Shown here: in pieces, positions 6,686 through 53,270 of the stretch
How positions within the stretch are numbered: position 1 is the stretch's first letter
Layout: the number at the start of each line of letters is the position of its first letter
NCBI GenBank assembly: GCA_944380515.1
Contig: CALWHT010000050.1
Coordinates: 23,124-87,123, forward strand
Direction of reading: 5' to 3'
Source: an uncultured Roseburia sp.
Lineage (GTDB): Bacteria > Bacillota > Clostridia > Lachnospirales > Lachnospiraceae
DNA: 64,000 nucleotides
Program-made: the position numbers and the translations under genes
Notes under the pieces: generated by a model
What the model saw: only the letters and a program-made list of their open reading frames with translations
What the model was told of the DNA's origin: nothing
The model's database searches: none

Positions 6686-7774
6686 CTAACGCTGCGCATT
6701 GGTTGTCAGCAGCATTTTTTCGAGCTGATCATAATCGTAGGAACGCTGGTTAAAATTATTGAATTTATTTTTGGAGGCATTTCCCGTCTGGGAAGCGCCG
6801 GAAGCATTCCTTGACTCCCGGTGCTCACTGCCGAGCCGCCGGACGTCTTCGAGCGAGCGCACCTGCCGTTCTTTCCAGTTCTTCAAAATAGAGTCCGCAT
6901 ACTGGAAACTCGGCTGATGGATGGCCTGAATGGTCTGCTGGCATGCCTCTGAGATAAGCTCGGTGGAAAAACCGTATTCCGAACGCCAGCGCTCAATAAA
7001 CTCTGTCTCGGACGGAACGAGGTTCCTGCCGGAAATTCCGAATGCGCGCATGACAGCGTAATAGGCCGCGCTGTGGATTTTGGCTTCCTGTTTGGCGGCG
7101 CTTACGCTCCGTATACCGGATTCCGCCCACCGTATGGCAGTCGTTTCGATATAGCGTATGGCGGTATGGTTCTTGCTCACACAGTATTCCACAAGGTATT
7201 CGATTAAATCGGCGGAAAAGCCGAGACCGTCATACAGATAAAGAAACGTGTTGGTATCGGTCTGACTTAACGGCCGTCCGAGATAGCGCTCGGCAATAAA
7301 TAAAAGCTCGGCAATCTGGTCGTTTTCGCAGAAATCTTTCAGGTCGTCCGCCGTGTAGCATTTTTTCGGGGGAACGGAATCCGTTTCCTCCGGGGTCTGG
7401 ACCTGTGCCGGAGAATCCCCGGCGGGAAGCCGGGAAGCTTCCGGATCCCCAGATAATGCCTCTTCCTCATGGCGGGGAACGGAGTCGAGCAGACAGATTC
7501 CGGTAAGGTTGTCCTCCGCATCATATTCCAGCTGCAAAAGCTTCATGCGCTCCCAGTAGCTTAAGGCACGCCGCACGTCTTTTTCCGTGTGCTCGAATTT
7601 ATCGGCAATCGAGGAAAGAGAAAAGGCGGAGTCAGGCGCATTCATCAGGCGCAGCAGATACAGATATATTTTTACGAATTCCCCGTTCGCATCAGACATA
7701 TATTCGTCAATAAAAATATTGGAAACACTCGTGGCAGAGGTATCGCTGTCACGGTGGATTCGTATTTTTGCCAT
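6686..7774 (-). CDS. DnaD-domain primosome protein
   Basis: DnaD-type proteins remodel DNA at origins and restart sites and help recruit the helicase loader. I take the start at ATG 7774 (MAKIRIHRD), giving 362 residues; the reading open to 7930 runs back through the promoter. Residues about 20-95 form the winged-helix N-terminal domain (IFIDEYM...KLLQLEY). A Pro/Glu linker follows, then the C-terminal DnaD domain (YTADDLKDFC...YIETTAIRWAESGI), including the conserved YLxxxxxxW-like end. It is the first gene of the minus-strand set dnaD-dnaC-prs. Confidence 0.85.
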   Translation of the reverse strand: MAKIRIHRDSDTSATSVSNIFIDEYMSDANGEFVKIYLYLLRLMNAPDSAFSLSSIADKFEHTEKDVRRALSYWERMKLLQLEYDAEDNLTGICLLDSVPRHEEEALSGDPEASRLPAGDSPAQVQTPEETDSVPPKKCYTADDLKDFCENDQIAELLFIAERYLGRPLSQTDTNTFLYLYDGLGFSADLIEYLVEYCVSKNHTAIRYIETTAIRWAESGIRSVSAAKQEAKIHSAAYYAVMRAFGISGRNLVPSETEFIERWRSEYGFSTELISEACQQTIQAIHQPSFQYADSILKNWKERQVRSLEDVRRLGSEHRESRNASGASQTGNASKNKFNNFNQRSYDYDQLEKMLLTTNAQR

Positions 7775-12452: not shown

Positions 12453-12500
12453 GGAGCATGCAGGGGATAGCAAATAATATATATAATGTAAGGGGAAAAT

Positions 12501-23653: not shown

Positions 23654-23694
23654 AAACAGCGTAAGTTATACAACCGCATATAGCATAGAAATTT

Positions 23695-23858
23695 TCTTAT
23701 TCAGAGTGATGGAGATACAAAGGATCTGTGAAGTCACGGCAACCCCTCTACGGAAGGTGCCAACCTGAGCGAATCAATTTACAAGTTCGAACAATAAGAG
23801 GATTTGAGCATTGGCAAAAGATGTCACTTCCACTTGTTTTCGCAGGTGGATTTTTTTT
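23695..23858 (+). ncRNA. SAM-I (S-box) riboswitch with terminator
   Basis: The aptamer runs about 23695-23800, closed by P1 TCTTATT/AATAAGA. The S-box core is visible as CAGAGTGATGGAGA, then GTCACGGCAACC (23734-23744) and GGTGCCAACCTGAGC. The expression platform ends in a hairpin TCCACTTG/CAGGTGGA followed by T8 (23829-23858). High SAM should terminate transcription of metK, the SAM synthetase gene, giving feedback control. Confidence 0.93.
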
Positions 23859-45940: not shown

Positions 45941-47767
45941 TTGAATAGTAAAAGAAACGGTTTTAGAGGATTTGGAATTTACCTGATATTGATACTGGCA
46001 GTGATTGCTATCTGGTATTGGCTGGACGGCAATACGTCCACAAACCATTATACGAGACAGCAGTTTGAGACAGCGCTTGCCGAGGGTGAGGTGGCGCAGG
46101 TGAATATCGTGCCTAACCGCGAGGTGCCGACGGGAAGTGTCTATATTACGTTCCGCGATTCCAGCACGGAGGTGCTTTTGGTCTCCGATGTGAATGAGAT
46201 TGAAGAATACATGCGGGATCAGGATTTTAAGACCTATACCGTACAGAATCCGCCGGAGGAGAGCTGGCTGTTGACGCTGCTGCCGTATCTGATTATTTTC
46301 GCGGCGATGTTCATCTTCTTTATGATTATGACGAATCAGGCGGCGGCAAGCTCGGGCGGCGGAAACAAGATGATGAACTTCGGCAAGAGCAGGGCAAAGA
46401 TGATGACAGATGAGCAGGCAAAGCGGGTGACCTTTGCCAATGTTGCCGGATTGAAGGAAGAAAAGGAAGAATTGGAGGAAATCGTGGATTTCCTGCGTGC
46501 TCCGAAAAAATATACGCAGCTTGGCGCGAGGATTCCGAAGGGCGTGCTTTTGGTCGGACCGCCCGGAACCGGTAAGACTCTCCTGGCAAAGGCGATTGCA
46601 GGCGAGGCCGGTGTGCCGTTTTTCAGCATTTCCGGTTCTGATTTCGTGGAAATGTTTGTCGGCGTCGGAGCCTCCCGTGTGCGTGATCTGTTCGAGGAGG
46701 CGAAGAAGAACGCGCCCTGTATCGTGTTTATCGACGAGATTGACGCGGTTGCGAGACGCCGCGGCACAGGTATGGGCGGCGGGCACGACGAGCGCGAGCA
46801 GACCTTAAATCAGATGCTTGTGGAGATGGACGGTTTCGGCGTCAACGAGGGAATTATCGTGATGGCGGCGACAAACCGCGTAGATATTTTGGACCCTGCG
46901 ATCATGCGTCCGGGACGCTTTGACCGGAAGGTGCATGTGGGCTGTCCCGATGTGGGCGGCAGAGAGGAGATCCTTGCCGTTCACGCAAAGAACAAGCCGC
47001 TCGGCGATGATGTGGATTTAAAGGAGATTGCCCAGACAACGGCGGGCTTTACCGGGGCTGATTTGGAGAATCTTCTCAATGAGGCGGCAATTATCGCGGC
47101 AAAGGAAAACCGGGTGTATATCGTTCAGGCGGATATCAAGAGGTCCTTTGTCAAGGTTGGAATCGGCGCCGAAAAGAAAAGCCGCATTATTTCCGAGAAG
47201 GAAAAGCGGATTACGGCCTTTCATGAATCCGGGCATGCGATTTTATTCCATCTGCTCCCGGATGTCGGACCGGTATATTCCGTTTCGATTATTCCGACCG
47301 GAAACGGGGCGGCCGGGTATACGATGCCGCTGCCGGAAAAGGATGAGATGTTTAACACCAAAGGAAAGATGCTGCAGGATATTATTGTTTCCCTGGGCGG
47401 ACGTGTGGCGGAGGAGCTGGTGTTTGATGATATTACGACCGGAGCTTCTCAGGATATTAAGCAGGCGACCAGGATGGCAAAGGCGATGGTCACAAAATAC
47501 GGCATGTCTGAAAATATCGGTTTGATCTGCTATGACAATGATGACGATGAGGTGTTCATCGGCCGTGACCTTGCCCATACCAGAGGCTACAGCGAAGGGG
47601 TGGCAACTGAAATCGACCGGGAAATCAAGAGCATTATCGATGACTGTTACGCGAAGGCAAGGCAGCTCATTACGGAAAACAGGAGTGTTTTGGATGCCTG
47701 TGCAAAGCTGCTTTTGGAAAAGGAAAAAATCGGACGCCAGGAGTTTGAGGCATTATTTGAAGCGTGA
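45941..47767 (+). CDS. ftsH: ATP-dependent zinc metalloprotease FtsH
   Basis: FtsH degrades membrane and regulatory proteins. The start is TTG 45941 ([12 protein letters not shown]) behind AAAGGAGAAG, giving 608 residues. Two membrane segments (about 10-27 and 108-130) flank a short extracellular domain. The AAA+ motor has the Walker A GPPGTGKT, Walker [12 protein letters not shown] and the second-region [10 protein letters not shown]. The zinc site is HESGH, with the third ligand region [12 protein letters not shown]. It ends the spoIIE-tilS-hpt-ftsH run; no terminator follows before the small-RNA region. Confidence 0.96.
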
Positions 47768-47840: not shown

Positions 47841-47994
47841 AATTTGTGAAGTTTGTGCACACTTGTTTGCGGTGGCGTGGTATTATAATAACCGTAAAAC
47901 CCCCCAATACATTATATATAGTTTTTGCTATACCCCATAGTAAAAATACCTTCTCCTAAAAATGGAACTGACTCGTCAGTTTCATTTTTTTTGC
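47841..47994 (+). repeat. Small-RNA unit, tandem copy 1 (promoter to terminator)
   Basis: This 154-bp unit is about 95% identical to 48120-48274, with a stretch of about 80 bases unchanged. It contains TTTGTG direct repeats and the near-palindrome AAGTTTGTGCACACTT, a -10 TATAAT (47884-47889), a C-rich transcribed region and a terminator. The offset between copies is 279 bp. Weaker similarity continues upstream to about 47808. Confidence 0.85.
47896..47992 (+). ncRNA. Putative C-rich small RNA, copy 1
   Basis: Predicted to start about seven bases after TATAAT and to end in the terminator GGAACTGA-CTCG-TCAGTTTC-T8 (47964-47992), giving about 97 nt. Inside are CCCCCC near the 5' end, a 10-bp hairpin TTTTTGCTAT/ATAGTAAAAA exposing loop ACCCC, and an unpaired ACCTTCTCCT like an anti-Shine-Dalgarno. 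No sensible reading frame is present. I do not recognise an RNA family. Confidence 0.6.
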
Positions 47995-48119
47995 TTTTGC
48001 AGGAAAAATAAAGGTATTGGCTTTCCCATCAAATCAAAAGCCCGCCGCAGGCGGTACGGGACAGAAATTTTAAGATTGGGAGGAAGGTACTGTATAAAGT
48101 GCACAAAAACAAATATGAA

Positions 48120-48274
48120 AATTTGTGAAGTTTGTGCACACTTATTTGCAGAGGCGTGGTAATATAATAACCGTAAAAACCCCCCAATACATTATATATA
48201 GTTTTTGCTATACCCCATAGTAAAAATACCTTCTCCTAAAAATGAAACTGATTGGTCAGTTTCATTTTTTTTGC
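48120..48274 (+). repeat. Small-RNA unit, tandem copy 2 (promoter to terminator)
   Basis: Second copy of the unit at 47841-47994, differing by about seven substitutions and one inserted A. The -10 TATAAT is at 48163-48168. The bases between the copies (47995-48119) hold a CCGCC-GCA-GGCGG hairpin and nothing else I can name. Confidence 0.85.
48174..48272 (+). ncRNA. Putative C-rich small RNA, copy 2
   Basis: Same predicted layout as copy 1, about 99 nt, with terminator GAAACTGA-TTGG-TCAGTTTC-T8 (48244-48272). Compared with copy 1 the terminator changes are a loop change and G-U to A-U in the stem, which keeps the structure. The ACCCC-loop hairpin and the CCTTCTCCT segment are identical in both copies. 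Confidence 0.6.
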
Positions 48275-48280
48275 GCTTAT

Positions 48281-48300
48281 TATTAGATAAGAATCTAATA
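48281..48300. promoter_or_regulatory. Upstream operator of the MFS-ArsR unit
   Basis: TATTAGAT-AAGA-ATCTAATA is an 8-4-8 inverted repeat just before the -35 at 48309. Its partner is at 48341-48359. Confidence 0.65.
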
Positions 48301-48308
48301 ACAATGTG

Positions 48309-48340: not shown

Positions 48341-48359
48341 TATTAGATATATATCTAAT
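48341..48359. promoter_or_regulatory. Downstream operator of the MFS-ArsR unit
   Basis: TATTAGAT-ATAT-ATCTAAT repeats the upstream operator, exactly 60 bp later, and covers the expected transcription start, consistent with repression. Confidence 0.65.
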
Positions 48360-48410
48360 TACATACGAGATAATGGTTAAACAAAGGAGAAGAGGGGGGG
48401 GGAACAGGAA

Positions 48411-49664: not shown

Positions 49665-49686
49665 TGAGCGGAAGGGTGCGGACGAT

Positions 49687-50823
49687 ATGCAGGGAAATAT
49701 CATACGGAAAATTGATTATATATCGGAGGCGTTTAGCCTGCTCGTGCTTCTCGCAAGTGACGAGGGTGTTGCGGAGCTGGAAAGGAGCCTCGGGAAAAAG
49801 TATGATTTAAGCGGGACGCAGCTGCGCGGGATATTTGACCTGTTAGGGCAGATTGAGCAGGAGGCGCACAGACAGCTGGATGACAGCAGGGAAGAAATCA
49901 AATACTATTTTTATGAAAAGGAAGGGGAGAGAGAGGCGCTTGCCGGGTTTGTCCTTTTGGGAGAGTGCTGGCATGGGTTTATTGGCGACAGCACAGAGGG
50001 TATAGAGAAAAATCTTGCGTCTATGACGGAGGAGGAATATTGCAGAGTCTTCGGGGAGCGGCTTTTTCTTTATGGAACAGGAATATTAGACAACAGCGAG
50101 ATTGAGAAGGACAGGACGCCGGGGGACGTCATGCGGCGGATTTTGCGGATGAAGCTTGCGGACGCGGAAAAGCTGCGGCTGCAGGAGGTGTTCTGGGAGC
50201 CGGAGCGTCACCGAAAGTGTGTGTTTGGGCTTTTGGAGCGCGCGGCAGGCGTCCTTCGTCATTTCGAAACGGAGCTGCTTCACTGGACGGAGCAGTTTTA
50301 CGATTATTGGAGGGAATATGGGGAGAGCCGGGATTTACGTTCTTTTCTCACAGAAAAGTGGGGCATCAGCATCGGCGAAAACTCTTACGGCTATGAGGTT
50401 TATCCGGCGTTTATTGCGGCGAATGCCGCGGGCTTTTTCTGTGACGTGGACGATAACGGTGAATTTCGCAGGGCGGATGTTTATCGGCTGGGCATACTTT
50501 TTTCCGCGGGCATTCCGCTTGGGGCGGGAAGCGGCAGGGTGGGCGCGGCGATGGAGGGCCATGCCCTTGAGGTCTTAAAGCTGTTAAGCGACCGCAGCAA
50601 ATTCGAGATTCTCTCCTATATCCGTGATAAAAGCGCTTACGGCAGCGAACTGGCGAAGCACCTGGATCTGACCACCGCAACGATTTCCCATCATATGGGA
50701 GGGCTTTTGGGAAAAGGCCTGGTGGAGCTGGAAAAGGAAAATAACCGTATTTTTTATCGTGCCAATACGGAGGAAATTGCGGAGGTGCTTTCCTGGTGCC
50801 AGCGGGTTTTAACCGGAAAATAG
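49687..50823 (+). CDS. Long ArsR-type transcriptional regulator
   Basis: I choose ATG 49687 (MQGNIIRKID), giving 378 residues, three to four times a simple ArsR protein. The C-terminal 80 residues are the winged helix: EVLKLLSDRSKFEILSYIRD, recognition helix ELAKHLDLTTATISHHM and wing KENNRIFYRA. The N-terminal 290 residues are mostly helical and acidic with Trp-rich patches; I recognise no metal-ligand motif or named domain there, so it may sense an organic ligand. It probably binds the TATTAGAT-N4-ATCTAATA sites before the MFS gene. Confidence 0.82.
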   Translation: MQGNIIRKIDYISEAFSLLVLLASDEGVAELERSLGKKYDLSGTQLRGIFDLLGQIEQEAHRQLDDSREEIKYYFYEKEGEREALAGFVLLGECWHGFIGDSTEGIEKNLASMTEEEYCRVFGERLFLYGTGILDNSEIEKDRTPGDVMRRILRMKLADAEKLRLQEVFWEPERHRKCVFGLLERAAGVLRHFETELLHWTEQFYDYWREYGESRDLRSFLTEKWGISIGENSYGYEVYPAFIAANAAGFFCDVDDNGEFRRADVYRLGILFSAGIPLGAGSGRVGAAMEGHALEVLKLLSDRSKFEILSYIRDKSAYGSELAKHLDLTTATISHHMGGLLGKGLVELEKENNRIFYRANTEEIAEVLSWCQRVLTGK

Positions 50824-50904: not shown

Positions 50905-53052
50905 ATGAACAAACAAGATTCTGTTTATGAGTTTAACCGTATACAGCGCTATATCATGCAGATGCGCCCGCTTTTGCGGAAGGAAGCGCTTTTTTCCGAC
51001 GGGACGGCCGACTACAGACAGCCTGTGGAGCCGGAGGCGGGGGAGGAAGTGACCATCCGTTTTCGCACGGCGAAAGACAATGTCGATATTGTATGGCTCT
51101 GCACCGGGGAGCAGCAGTATAAGATGAAAAAAGCCGAGACGGCGGGAGAATTTGATTATTATGAGGTAAAAATCACGCTTGGGGAAGAACCGTTCTGCTA
51201 TTATTTTAAGGTTGTGACGGGGCTTTTGTGCGTATATTATGACCGTTACGGCGTCAGCAAAAAATCCCGTGAGCAGTACTGTTTCCGCATCATTCCGGGC
51301 TTTTCCACGCCGGACTGGTCGAAGGGGGCGGTGATGTACCAGATTCTGGTGGATCGGTTTTACAACGGGGATACGTCCAACGACGTGCTGACCGATGAGT
51401 ATTTTTATATCCGCACGACCAGTCAGCGGATGGAGGACTGGGAGCAGTGCCCTTCGGATTTTTCCGTGGCAGAGTTTTACGGGGGAGATCTGGAGGGGGT
51501 TCGTCAAAAGCTGGACTACCTTCAGGGGCTTGGCGTGGAGGTTATCTATTTTAATCCGTTGTTTGTCTCTCCCTCCAACCACAAATATGACATTCAGGAT
51601 TACGATTATATCGACCCGCATTACGGAGTTATTTTAGAGGACGACGGGATGCTGCTTTCGGACGGGGTGACCGATAACCGCAGGGCAACCCGCCATGTGA
51701 ACCGCGTGACAAACCGGAAAAATTTAGAGGCGAGCAACCGCTTTTTCGCAAAGCTCGTGGAAGAAATTCATGCCAGAGGTATGAGGGTGATTCTCGATGG
51801 GGTGTTCAATCACTGCGGTTCGTTTAACAAATGGCTTGACCGGGAGGAAATTTACACGCTCACCGGAGATTATGAGAAGGGAGCGTTTATTTCGGAGGAA
51901 AGTCCGTACCGCAGCTTTTTTAAGTTCCGCGATGAGCACGCATGGCCCTTTAATACAACCTACGAGGGCTGGTGGGGGCATGATACCCTTCCGAAGCTCA
52001 ATTATGAGGACTCCGAAAAGCTGTACGACTATATTATGCGCATTGCCGCAAAATGGGTGTCCCCCCCTTACAATGTGGACGGCTGGAGGCTGGATGTGGC
52101 GGCGGATTTGGGCCATTCGCCCGAGGTGAATCATAAGTTTTGGAGGGATTTCCGCACGGCGGTAAAGACGGCGAATCCGGACGCGATTATTTTGGCGGAG
52201 CATTACGGGGACCCGAAGGAATGGCTCGAGAACGGGGACCAATGGGACACCGTAATGAATTATGACGCGTTTATGGAGCCTCTGACCTGGTTTTTGACCG
52301 GCCTGGAAAAGCACAGCGACGAGGCAAAGCCGGAGTTGCTTGGAAGCGAAAAGGATTTTGAGGGAGCAATGCGCCATTACATGGCAAGCTTCCAGACTTC
52401 CCAGCTATTATGCGCCATGAACGAGCTTTCCAACCATGACCATTCCCGTTTTATGACAAGGACAAACGGAAAGGTGGGGCGCGCGGCGGTGCTTGGAACC
52501 CATGCCGCGTCGGAGGGAATCCGTCCTGCGGTATTCCGGGAGGCGGTAGTCGTTCAGATGACCTGGCCCGGAGCGCCGACCGTTTATTACGGGGATGAAG
52601 CGGGGCTCTGCGGCTTTACCGACCCGGACAACAGGCGCACCTACCCGTGGGGAAAGGAAGATGTGGTATTGGTGGATTTCCACCGGGACATCATCCATAT
52701 CCATAAGGAAAATCCGGCGCTGCGCACGGGTTCCCTGAAGTTTTTAAAGGGTGGGGAGAATCTGCTCTGTTACGCAAGATTTAACCGCAGTCAGCAGTTT
52801 GTCGTACTGCTTAATAACGGCGAGTCGGAGCGGAGTATCGAGCTGGAGGTCTGGCCGGCGGGCATCCCGAGAGAAGCCGTGCTTGAGCGCATTATGATCA
52901 CAAACGAAGCCGGATATTCGCTGATGCCCAGGCGCTACGAGCTTAAGGACGGTGTGCTGGCGATTGAGCTGCAAAAGCAGTCTGCCGTGATTTTAAGATG
53001 CGAAATCGAGCCGCAGAACGAAAAAACGGTTGCGCGATCAAAGGCAATGTGA
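50905..53052 (+). CDS. GH13 alpha-glucanase, neopullulanase/cyclomaltodextrinase type
   Basis: The 715-residue enzyme should hydrolyse alpha-1,4 (and perhaps 1,6) links of starch-derived dextrins. An N-terminal beta domain (about 30-130) precedes the (beta/alpha)8 barrel. GH13 regions are visible: region I DGVFNHCG, region II DGWRLDVAAD with the nucleophile Asp, region III ILAEHYG with the acid/base Glu and region IV ELSNHDHSR with the transition-state Asp. A C-terminal beta domain follows. No signal peptide is seen, so it is intracellular. Confidence 0.92.
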   Translation: MNKQDSVYEFNRIQRYIMQMRPLLRKEALFSDGTADYRQPVEPEAGEEVTIRFRTAKDNVDIVWLCTGEQQYKMKKAETAGEFDYYEVKITLGEEPFCYYFKVVTGLLCVYYDRYGVSKKSREQYCFRIIPGFSTPDWSKGAVMYQILVDRFYNGDTSNDVLTDEYFYIRTTSQRMEDWEQCPSDFSVAEFYGGDLEGVRQKLDYLQGLGVEVIYFNPLFVSPSNHKYDIQDYDYIDPHYGVILEDDGMLLSDGVTDNRRATRHVNRVTNRKNLEASNRFFAKLVEEIHARGMRVILDGVFNHCGSFNKWLDREEIYTLTGDYEKGAFISEESPYRSFFKFRDEHAWPFNTTYEGWWGHDTLPKLNYEDSEKLYDYIMRIAAKWVSPPYNVDGWRLDVAADLGHSPEVNHKFWRDFRTAVKTANPDAIILAEHYGDPKEWLENGDQWDTVMNYDAFMEPLTWFLTGLEKHSDEAKPELLGSEKDFEGAMRHYMASFQTSQLLCAMNELSNHDHSRFMTRTNGKVGRAAVLGTHAASEGIRPAVFREAVVVQMTWPGAPTVYYGDEAGLCGFTDPDNRRTYPWGKEDVVLVDFHRDIIHIHKENPALRTGSLKFLKGGENLLCYARFNRSQQFVVLLNNGESERSIELEVWPAGIPREAVLERIMITNEAGYSLMPRRYELKDGVLAIELQKQSAVILRCEIEPQNEKTVARSKAM

Positions 53053-53097: not shown

Positions 53098-53179
53098 GGG
53101 CAGATTCCCGAGTGGCCAAAGGGGACAGACTGTAAATCTGCTGCAAATTGCTTCGGTGGTTCGAATCCACCTCTGCCCA
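53098..53179 (+). tRNA. tRNA-Tyr (GTA)
   Basis: Acceptor arms GGGCAGA (53098-53104) and TCTGCCC (53172-53178) pair, discriminator A at 53179. The anticodon GTA is at 53132-53134 in loop CTGTAAA. A long variable arm marks class II, and the T-loop GGTTCGAATCC is intact. The CCA end is not encoded. Confidence 0.97.
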
Positions 53180-53186
53180 TTGATTT

Positions 53187-53270
53187 GCCGGCGTGGCGGA
53201 ACTGGCAGACGCGCAGGACTTAAAATCCTGTTGTAGAAATACAGTACCGGTTCGATTCCGGTCGCCGGCA
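53187..53270 (+). tRNA. tRNA-Leu (TAA)
   Basis: Acceptor arms GCCGGCG (53187-53193) and CGCCGGC (53263-53269) pair, discriminator A at 53270. The anticodon TAA is at 53221-53223 in loop CTTAAAA. The long variable arm TTGTAGAAATACAGT fits Leu. CCA is not encoded. It lies seven bases after tRNA-Tyr in the same transcript. Confidence 0.97.

Follow-up and report, generated by a model that had tools for sequence, protein, structure and literature searches.

A predicted C-rich small RNA gene, widespread in Lachnospiraceae and likely to act in trans, stands as a tandem pair behind ftsH

Background

In Bacillus and Staphylococcus, the small RNA (sRNA) RoxS/RsaE is described as carrying C-rich regions able to pair with Shine-Dalgarno sequences, with a regulator site upstream of its promoter and RosA as its sponge (PMC4409812, PMC8216469). 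In Listeria, LhrC1-5 are described as a multicopy sRNA whose redundant C/U-rich sites lie in loops and single-stranded stretches and whose expression depends on one two-component system (PMC4132741). SpoX and SpoY of Clostridioides difficile are sporulation-linked clostridial sRNAs reported to act on spo0A, possibly with RNA-RNA sponging (PMC10267692); the main text of that paper has no occurrence of spoVG. For C. phytofermentans, a non-coding transcript that lacks an explanation is described near cphy2658 (PMC5171806).

Keyword searches of the literature found no described trans-acting sRNA family of Lachnospiraceae. These bacteria are major gut fermenters, and the window analysed here, a stretch of 64,000 nucleotides from an uncultured Roseburia, contains a tandem repeat behind ftsH whose two units are, by sequence comparison, copies of a predicted sRNA gene widespread in this family.

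Two copies of one predicted gene

The repeat units occupy positions 47841-47994 and 48120-48274 of the forward strand, which also carries all features of the two copies given below. The original prediction described units of 154 and 155 bp, 279 bp apart and about 95% identical, and alignment bears this out, the two agreeing in 147 of 155 columns (94.8%). The unchanged core that it proposed is likewise present, with a longest identical run of 69 columns (from AAAACCCCCC to AAAAATG) instead of some 80 bases, and the differences between the units fall in the promoter region, the length of one A-run and the terminator hairpin. Each unit does have, as had been proposed, a TATAAT box and an intrinsic terminator: the hexamers end at 47889 and 48168, and a 14-bp hairpin with a U-run closes both units.

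Specifically, copy 1 has a -10 region at 47881..47889 (TATTATAAT, with TG just upstream) that is conserved in the sRNA family, a predicted transcript of about 97-99 nt at 47894..47992 (inferred 5' end, +/- 3 nt) and a terminator, identified by sequence and folding, at 47958..47992. Between promoter and terminator lie a CCCCCC motif (47900..47905) and an ACCCC motif (47932..47936), both predicted to be unpaired, followed by the C/U-rich motif AATACCTTCTCC (47946..47957), which is the complement of the Shine-Dalgarno-like GGAGAAGG and whose columns are mostly invariant in alignments A1 and A2. Copy 2 repeats this arrangement, with its -10 TATAAT at 48163..48168, a predicted transcript of again about 97-99 nt at 48173..48271 (inferred 5' end) and a terminator, by the same evidence, at 48238..48271. 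Folding of the predicted transcripts of about 100 nt gives z = -6.2 and -6.1, with none of 200 shuffles equally stable for either copy, values that are this strong because of, for the most part, the terminator and one AU-rich hairpin. A blastn search with copy 2 against its own genome returns copy 1 at 2e-42 and, at 2e-27, a third copy on a different contig, which lies downstream of a sigma-70 family gene.

The units had been said to contain no reading frame, and copies beyond the window mostly agree: the core is without a sense ATG in 173 of 219 collected copies, and no frame is conserved. On the opposite strand, a Shine-Dalgarno-like motif and ATGGG are found in 202 of these copies, as expected if the antisense strand encoded a micropeptide (GGAGAAGG-spacer-ATGGGG). 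However, the peptide would range from 3 to 146 aa, its frame shifts with the length of the C- and U-runs, the start is absent in 17 copies, and promoter and box belong to the sRNA strand. The antisense micro-ORF was rejected because neither peptide length nor frame is kept among the 219 copies, and we give it next to no chance of being correct.

By sequence, the units have what is expected of a trans-acting sRNA gene, namely their own promoter and terminator and no conserved frame, and appear to constitute a conserved non-coding gene that is apparently promoted and terminated independently.

The promoter box

The repeat starts about 43 bp upstream of TATAAT and thus includes an upstream promoter box (AAGTTTRTGCACACTT) that is found almost exclusively at genes of this sRNA, as GAAGTTTGTGCACACTTG at 47848..47865 for copy 1 and as GAAGTTTGTGCACACTTA at 48127..48144 for copy 2. 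The box of copy 1 is probably an activator site lying over the -35 position. With up to four mismatches, AAGTTTGTGCACACTTA occurs in 166 copies of a list of 237, compared with 2 when 237 shuffled stretches are scanned; this list, which belongs to the box scan and the core folding, held some false copies, for instance one inside ftsH. In 161 of these 166 copies, the box is centred 23-24 or 27 bp upstream of the -10 hexamer, and the 3-bp spread arises because TATTATAAT is ambiguous. Another 42 of the remaining 71 copies carry TTTGTRATNTTTGTGAA (up to three mismatches).

A search for the 16-mer AAGTTTGTGCACACTT, with at most one mismatch, points in the same direction. Across 40 genomes it yields 32 matches in 21 of them, compared with one for the backward control; 29 of the 32 abut an sRNA copy, another is an sRNA promoter that a contig end interrupts, and the last two (L310, L311) have no -10 at the expected distance. 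At the same stringency, 6 of 24 genus genomes have no match, and the box of the third copy in the source genome differs as well. The box thus looks dedicated to the sRNA gene, since 29 of 32 matches stand at copies, but it varies, since some genomes have none. The box region may resemble the TTTGTGAA repeats of ResD/SrrA.

Core anatomy and structure

Along the RNA, the elements of the family follow one another as a C-run of at least four, AAUACAUUAUAUA, a U-run with GCUA, CUAYACCCC, an A-rich linker that varies in length, AAAUACCUUCUC and the terminator. Box, -10 and core are conserved, with invariant columns in the C-run and in the CUUCUC motif (alignments A1 and A2); the terminator varies in sequence and was detected in 205 of 214 copies of the strict set. 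This set of 219 copies (206 loci) was defined by the presence of AATACCTTCT, and many of its loci come from a pattern scan. Conservation of the AU-rich block AATACATTATATA comes close to that of the C-rich motifs (193 of 219 copies), a count that is biased upward because AATACCTTCT was required and the scan pattern contains the block.

Mean unpaired probabilities are 0.95 (180 distinct cores) and 0.97 (172) for the two C-runs and 0.72 (178) for CUUCUC. The 10-bp hairpin with an ACCCC loop that had been noted in the window is indeed found in both units, with 11 bp in the minimum-energy fold, and is not conserved across the family: among the minimum-energy folds of 180 distinct cores, ACCCC falls in a loop in 97 and follows a hairpin in 52, and the ACCCC-loop hairpin was dismissed as a family feature. 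Distant forms keep the C-rich motifs and set them around hairpins whose sequences are unrelated, as in L240, where a hairpin with loop CUCCCCAAUA and a second hairpin precede CCCAAUAAGAAAUACCUUCUC. The variants L260 and L262 (family f22) carry an extra C-run just 5' of the terminator, with UAUUCUCCUUA in place of UACCUUCUCC. In L084, an additional hairpin stands between ACCCC and AAAUACCUUCUC, and the linker therefore tolerates structure.

The near-equal conservation of the AU block (with its biased count) would also be expected if the RNA mainly bound a protein, by titration or as a scaffold, with invariance reflecting protein contacts and mRNA complementarity being secondary. This is countered by RNAalifold, which found no consensus pair in the gappy alignment A2 and hence no consensus secondary structure, and by the AU block itself, which in the computed duplexes described below takes part in pairing to the spoVG 3'UTR and to a pullulanase leader. 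We regard a mainly protein-binding role as improbable.

Distribution and database status

The sequence-only model R1, built from 58 sequences, matches 181 of 248 family genomes and 175 of 242 genera (E<=1e-4). Across the order it matches 203 of 392 genomes (E<=0.01); many of the order-level matches outside Lachnospiraceae are weak (about 1e-3), and those read one by one, which are a part of them, mostly show the core with promoter and terminator. Across the class, 20 of 391 genomes match (E<=0.001), of which 17 belong to the order; the other three matches are partial and near the threshold, and were rejected as sRNA copies after a motif reading (L241-L243) revealed no full core. These searches suggest that other families of the order have weaker relatives, and they reveal no convincing one beyond the order.

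By blastn, 42 of 60 genomes have matches (the source genome included). Within the genus these are 35 of 36 genomes, and beyond it 7 of 24; on reading, the matches in two of the seven (G043, G047) were judged not to be sRNA copies. Scanning named species with a pattern found at least 120 stretches, and among the matches listed are Roseburia, Butyrivibrio, Blautia, Kineothrix, Fusicatenibacter, Enterocloster and many other Lachnospiraceae. Most matched family genomes have a single copy; the source genome has three, and several relatives also have tandem copies. One genome of another genus has five R1 matches, three of which were read in a single stretch (L313, G818:C2:15500-21500).

Rfam 15, at gathering scores, gives no match for the units in the window or for the copies in 20 related loci, RsaE/RoxS and LhrC included; the best sub-threshold matches score at most about half of the gathering value and were discarded. 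Elsewhere in the window, the same scores identify a SAM riboswitch (23694-23800) and two tRNA genes (53098-53179 and 53187-53270). The main texts of two genome-wide ncRNA surveys contain neither ftsH nor Lachnospir-, and their methods are, by their own account, not comprehensive for sRNAs. No description of this RNA was found in the literature searched, which lay outside most subscription papers and all supplements. The sRNA would represent a new family within a familiar type of RNA. The conservation of promoter, core and terminator, the negative frame and Rfam results, and the tandem and dispersed copies all agree with what the original prediction had proposed, a duplicated C-rich RNA of no recognised family that probably acts in trans.

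The locus and its neighbours

The usual upstream neighbour of the sRNA is ftsH, encoded in the window at 45941..47767 (+; Pfam Peptidase_M41/AAA/FtsH_ext). Of the strict-set copies with 600 nt of flank, 159 of 210 have it upstream in the same orientation, as do 122 of 144 copies at loci above L068, which were taken as outside the genus (mostly other genera; some, such as L113, L136 and L154, may belong to the genus itself). A sigma-factor gene is found upstream in 14 copies, none of them at loci above L068. Downstream, a GH13 alpha-amylase-family gene is a frequent neighbour (in the window at 50905..53052, +; Pfam Alpha-amylase), and an MFS exporter gene and an ArsR-type gene stand between it and the sRNA there. 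Two similar palindromes (TATTAGATAnnnATCTAATnACA, 83% alike) at 48281-48303 and 48341-48363 stand between the second sRNA and the exporter and may serve as operators for the ArsR-type regulator, whose gene is at 49681-50820.

Among ftsH-type copies with 1400 nt of flank, 90 of 134 are followed by GH13, which raises the question whether the element controls the next gene in cis, as a leader or attenuator, and does not act in trans. However, it has its own promoter, a strong terminator and tandem copies, the next gene in the window is the MFS exporter, and 14 copies follow a sigma-factor gene. A cis leader would hold a fixed position before one type of gene; here, the downstream gene varies and the RNA ends at its own terminator. 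Leaders of ftsH (61), GH13 (95), hpt (64) and tilS (52) show no complementarity to the sRNA (mean z 0.54, 0.14, 0.45 and 0.21, respectively), which for GH13 further argues against a leader, though a cis element need not pair. We consider a cis-acting role very unlikely.

Target searches

Pattern searches for targets gave little. With up to one mismatch, AGGAGAAGGTA shows no excess (100 matches versus 134 in the control), and a 22-nt RBS pattern has one non-self match in 34 genomes versus 7 in the control. GGAGAA-spacer-ATGGGG has eight matches, three of which are sRNA antisense; the five others, versus one in the control, are too few to use, and two of them precede a frame of more than 60 aa. 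GGAGAAG-GGGGG combinations occur four times in the genome, one being the exporter leader, and once in the control.

The exporter leader (AGGAGAAG followed by G9, about 48388-48410) has a motif order consistent with the sRNA, and its G-run is GGGG in the sister species. It was set aside as a target, ranking fifth among 42 gene starts of the window (from a crude start finder), with 28 of 300 mono-shuffled sRNAs pairing equally well. The best of the 42 starts, the leader of a DnaD-like gene (Pfam DnaB_2; complement(6686..7774)) at -31.6 kcal/mol, was likewise rejected since it is not kept beyond the sister species; the next best values at other loci are -25.5 and -23.8 kcal/mol (30 loci, four without a start and a few with starts that look misplaced). 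Computed pairing thus does not support the adjacent genes, the exporter included, as targets.

Candidate partner sites

Of the 36 genus genomes, 5 have non-self matches at E<=0.01, that is, matches that are neither sRNA copies nor sRNA terminators, where the E-value leads one to expect 0.36. They represent four independent sites, all in a UTR or RBS and with the complement on the mRNA strand. The first is a candidate site in the 3'UTR of spoVG (SpoVG by Pfam) at 12453..12495 (+; GGAGcaugcaGGGGAUAGCAAAuaaUAUAUAUAAUGUAaGGGG), complementary to the AU block and to parts of all three C-rich motifs. In the source genome and its sister G006 it stands directly before the terminator, with two GGGG runs and blocks of 13 and 8 bp, and is predicted to pair at -47.8 (window) and -44.4 kcal/mol (G006), values reached by none of 200 dinucleotide-shuffled sRNAs. 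It is the best non-self site among the 4262 windows of the 64 kb, surpassed only by the sRNA's own antisense; the next unrelated window reaches -44.0 kcal/mol, with 4 of 200 shuffles as good.

The second site, in the leader of a pullulanase gene of G019 (Pfam PUD, CBM_48, Alpha-amylase), combines 19 nt of perfect pairing with the GGGG of the Shine-Dalgarno region (-46.2 kcal/mol, 0/200 shuffles as good). The others are the RBS of a GH3 enzyme in G004 (-41.9 kcal/mol, 0/200; match E 0.00998) and the 3'UTR of an ABC permease in G001 (-38.6 kcal/mol, 1/200). All duplex energies leave out accessibility and concentrations. Among nine other windows chosen by high energy alone, four also had none of 200 shuffles as good, as is expected for extremes of more than 16,000 windows.

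Sites at or below -36 kcal/mol occur in the spoVG 3'UTRs of the window, G006, G019, G004 and G020, and in the other 24 of 29 usable spoVG 3'UTRs there is none; a thirtieth was truncated. In G019, G004 and G020 the sites pair at -36 to -38 kcal/mol and differ in sequence while keeping GGG(G)NUAGCAA, with 1, 1 and 7 of 200 dinucleotide shuffles as good.

These data can also be read as chance: the sRNA would act in trans, with the matches in spoVG and other UTRs being fortuitous and its real targets others. Specifically, two of the 24 non-genus genomes (G043, G047), in which no sRNA copy was found, have similar matches where 0.24 would be expected, and the E-value therefore understates the background; moreover, the pattern searches showed no excess, the sites are species-restricted, and the G004 match lies barely under the threshold. 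This is opposed by the placement of the four independent sites from the genus, each of which falls in a UTR or RBS and has its complement on the strand of the mRNA, and by the spoVG sites of four other species, three of which have changed in sequence but kept complementarity, if more weakly by the shuffle counts above. We view chance matches as a substantial possibility, falling short of an even one. The partner sites differ between species, which fits a broad, fast-changing target set and equally fits chance combined with the selection of hits.

A proposed model of trans-acting regulation

We consider it likely, from the sequence data, that each unit is an independent gene for a trans-acting antisense sRNA of the RoxS/RsaE or LhrC type that pairs with mRNAs. 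In such a model, RNA polymerase would start just past the -10, helped by a regulator at the dedicated box, and the resulting RNA of about 98 nt would end at its own terminator. It would expose CCCC(n), the AU-rich block, CUAYACCCC and AAAUACCUUCUC, and the C-rich seeds and AU block could then pair in trans with G-rich Shine-Dalgarno regions and their flanks, thereby blocking translation or destabilising the mRNAs. At the pullulanase and GH3 genes, pairing would occlude the Shine-Dalgarno sequence; long 3'UTR sites such as that of spoVG, just before the terminator, could be targets or sponges that titrate the sRNA. Extra copies may raise dosage, as in other sibling sRNAs.

A bolder and rather doubtful extension would make the nearly invariant RNA a master riboregulator of Lachnospirales, with its own transcription factor, that occludes the RBSs of polysaccharide-degrading enzymes and is sponged by 3'UTRs such as that of spoVG. 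If true, the use of starch and glycans would be tied to sporulation state throughout a dominant gut-bacterial family. For the trans-acting sRNA as such, the near-invariant core, the usual position after ftsH and the dedicated box offer an entry into RNA regulation in Lachnospiraceae, together with candidate partners.

Comparison with known systems

The nearest working analogues appear to be RoxS/RsaE with its sponge RosA, and the multicopy LhrC. Like RoxS/RsaE as described, the Lachnospiraceae sRNA combines C-rich regions, an upstream promoter box and a G-rich partner RNA (here a candidate, compare RosA), and it shares the presence of multiple unpaired C-rich regions, with two C-runs predicted to be unpaired and CUUCUC at a mean of 0.72. 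Unlike RoxS/RsaE, it has no Rfam match to RsaE, a different core and a different host group, and it is present in several copies in Roseburia. With LhrC1-5, as reported, it shares C/U-rich sites predicted in loops or single strands; multiple copies, as in LhrC, are seen in the source genome and several relatives, with one copy in most matched family genomes. It differs from LhrC1-5 in sequence, host and its strong synteny with ftsH. SpoX and SpoY, as far as described, would resemble it in a tie to sporulation and in possible sponging, whereas the RNAs themselves differ and the target there is spo0A.
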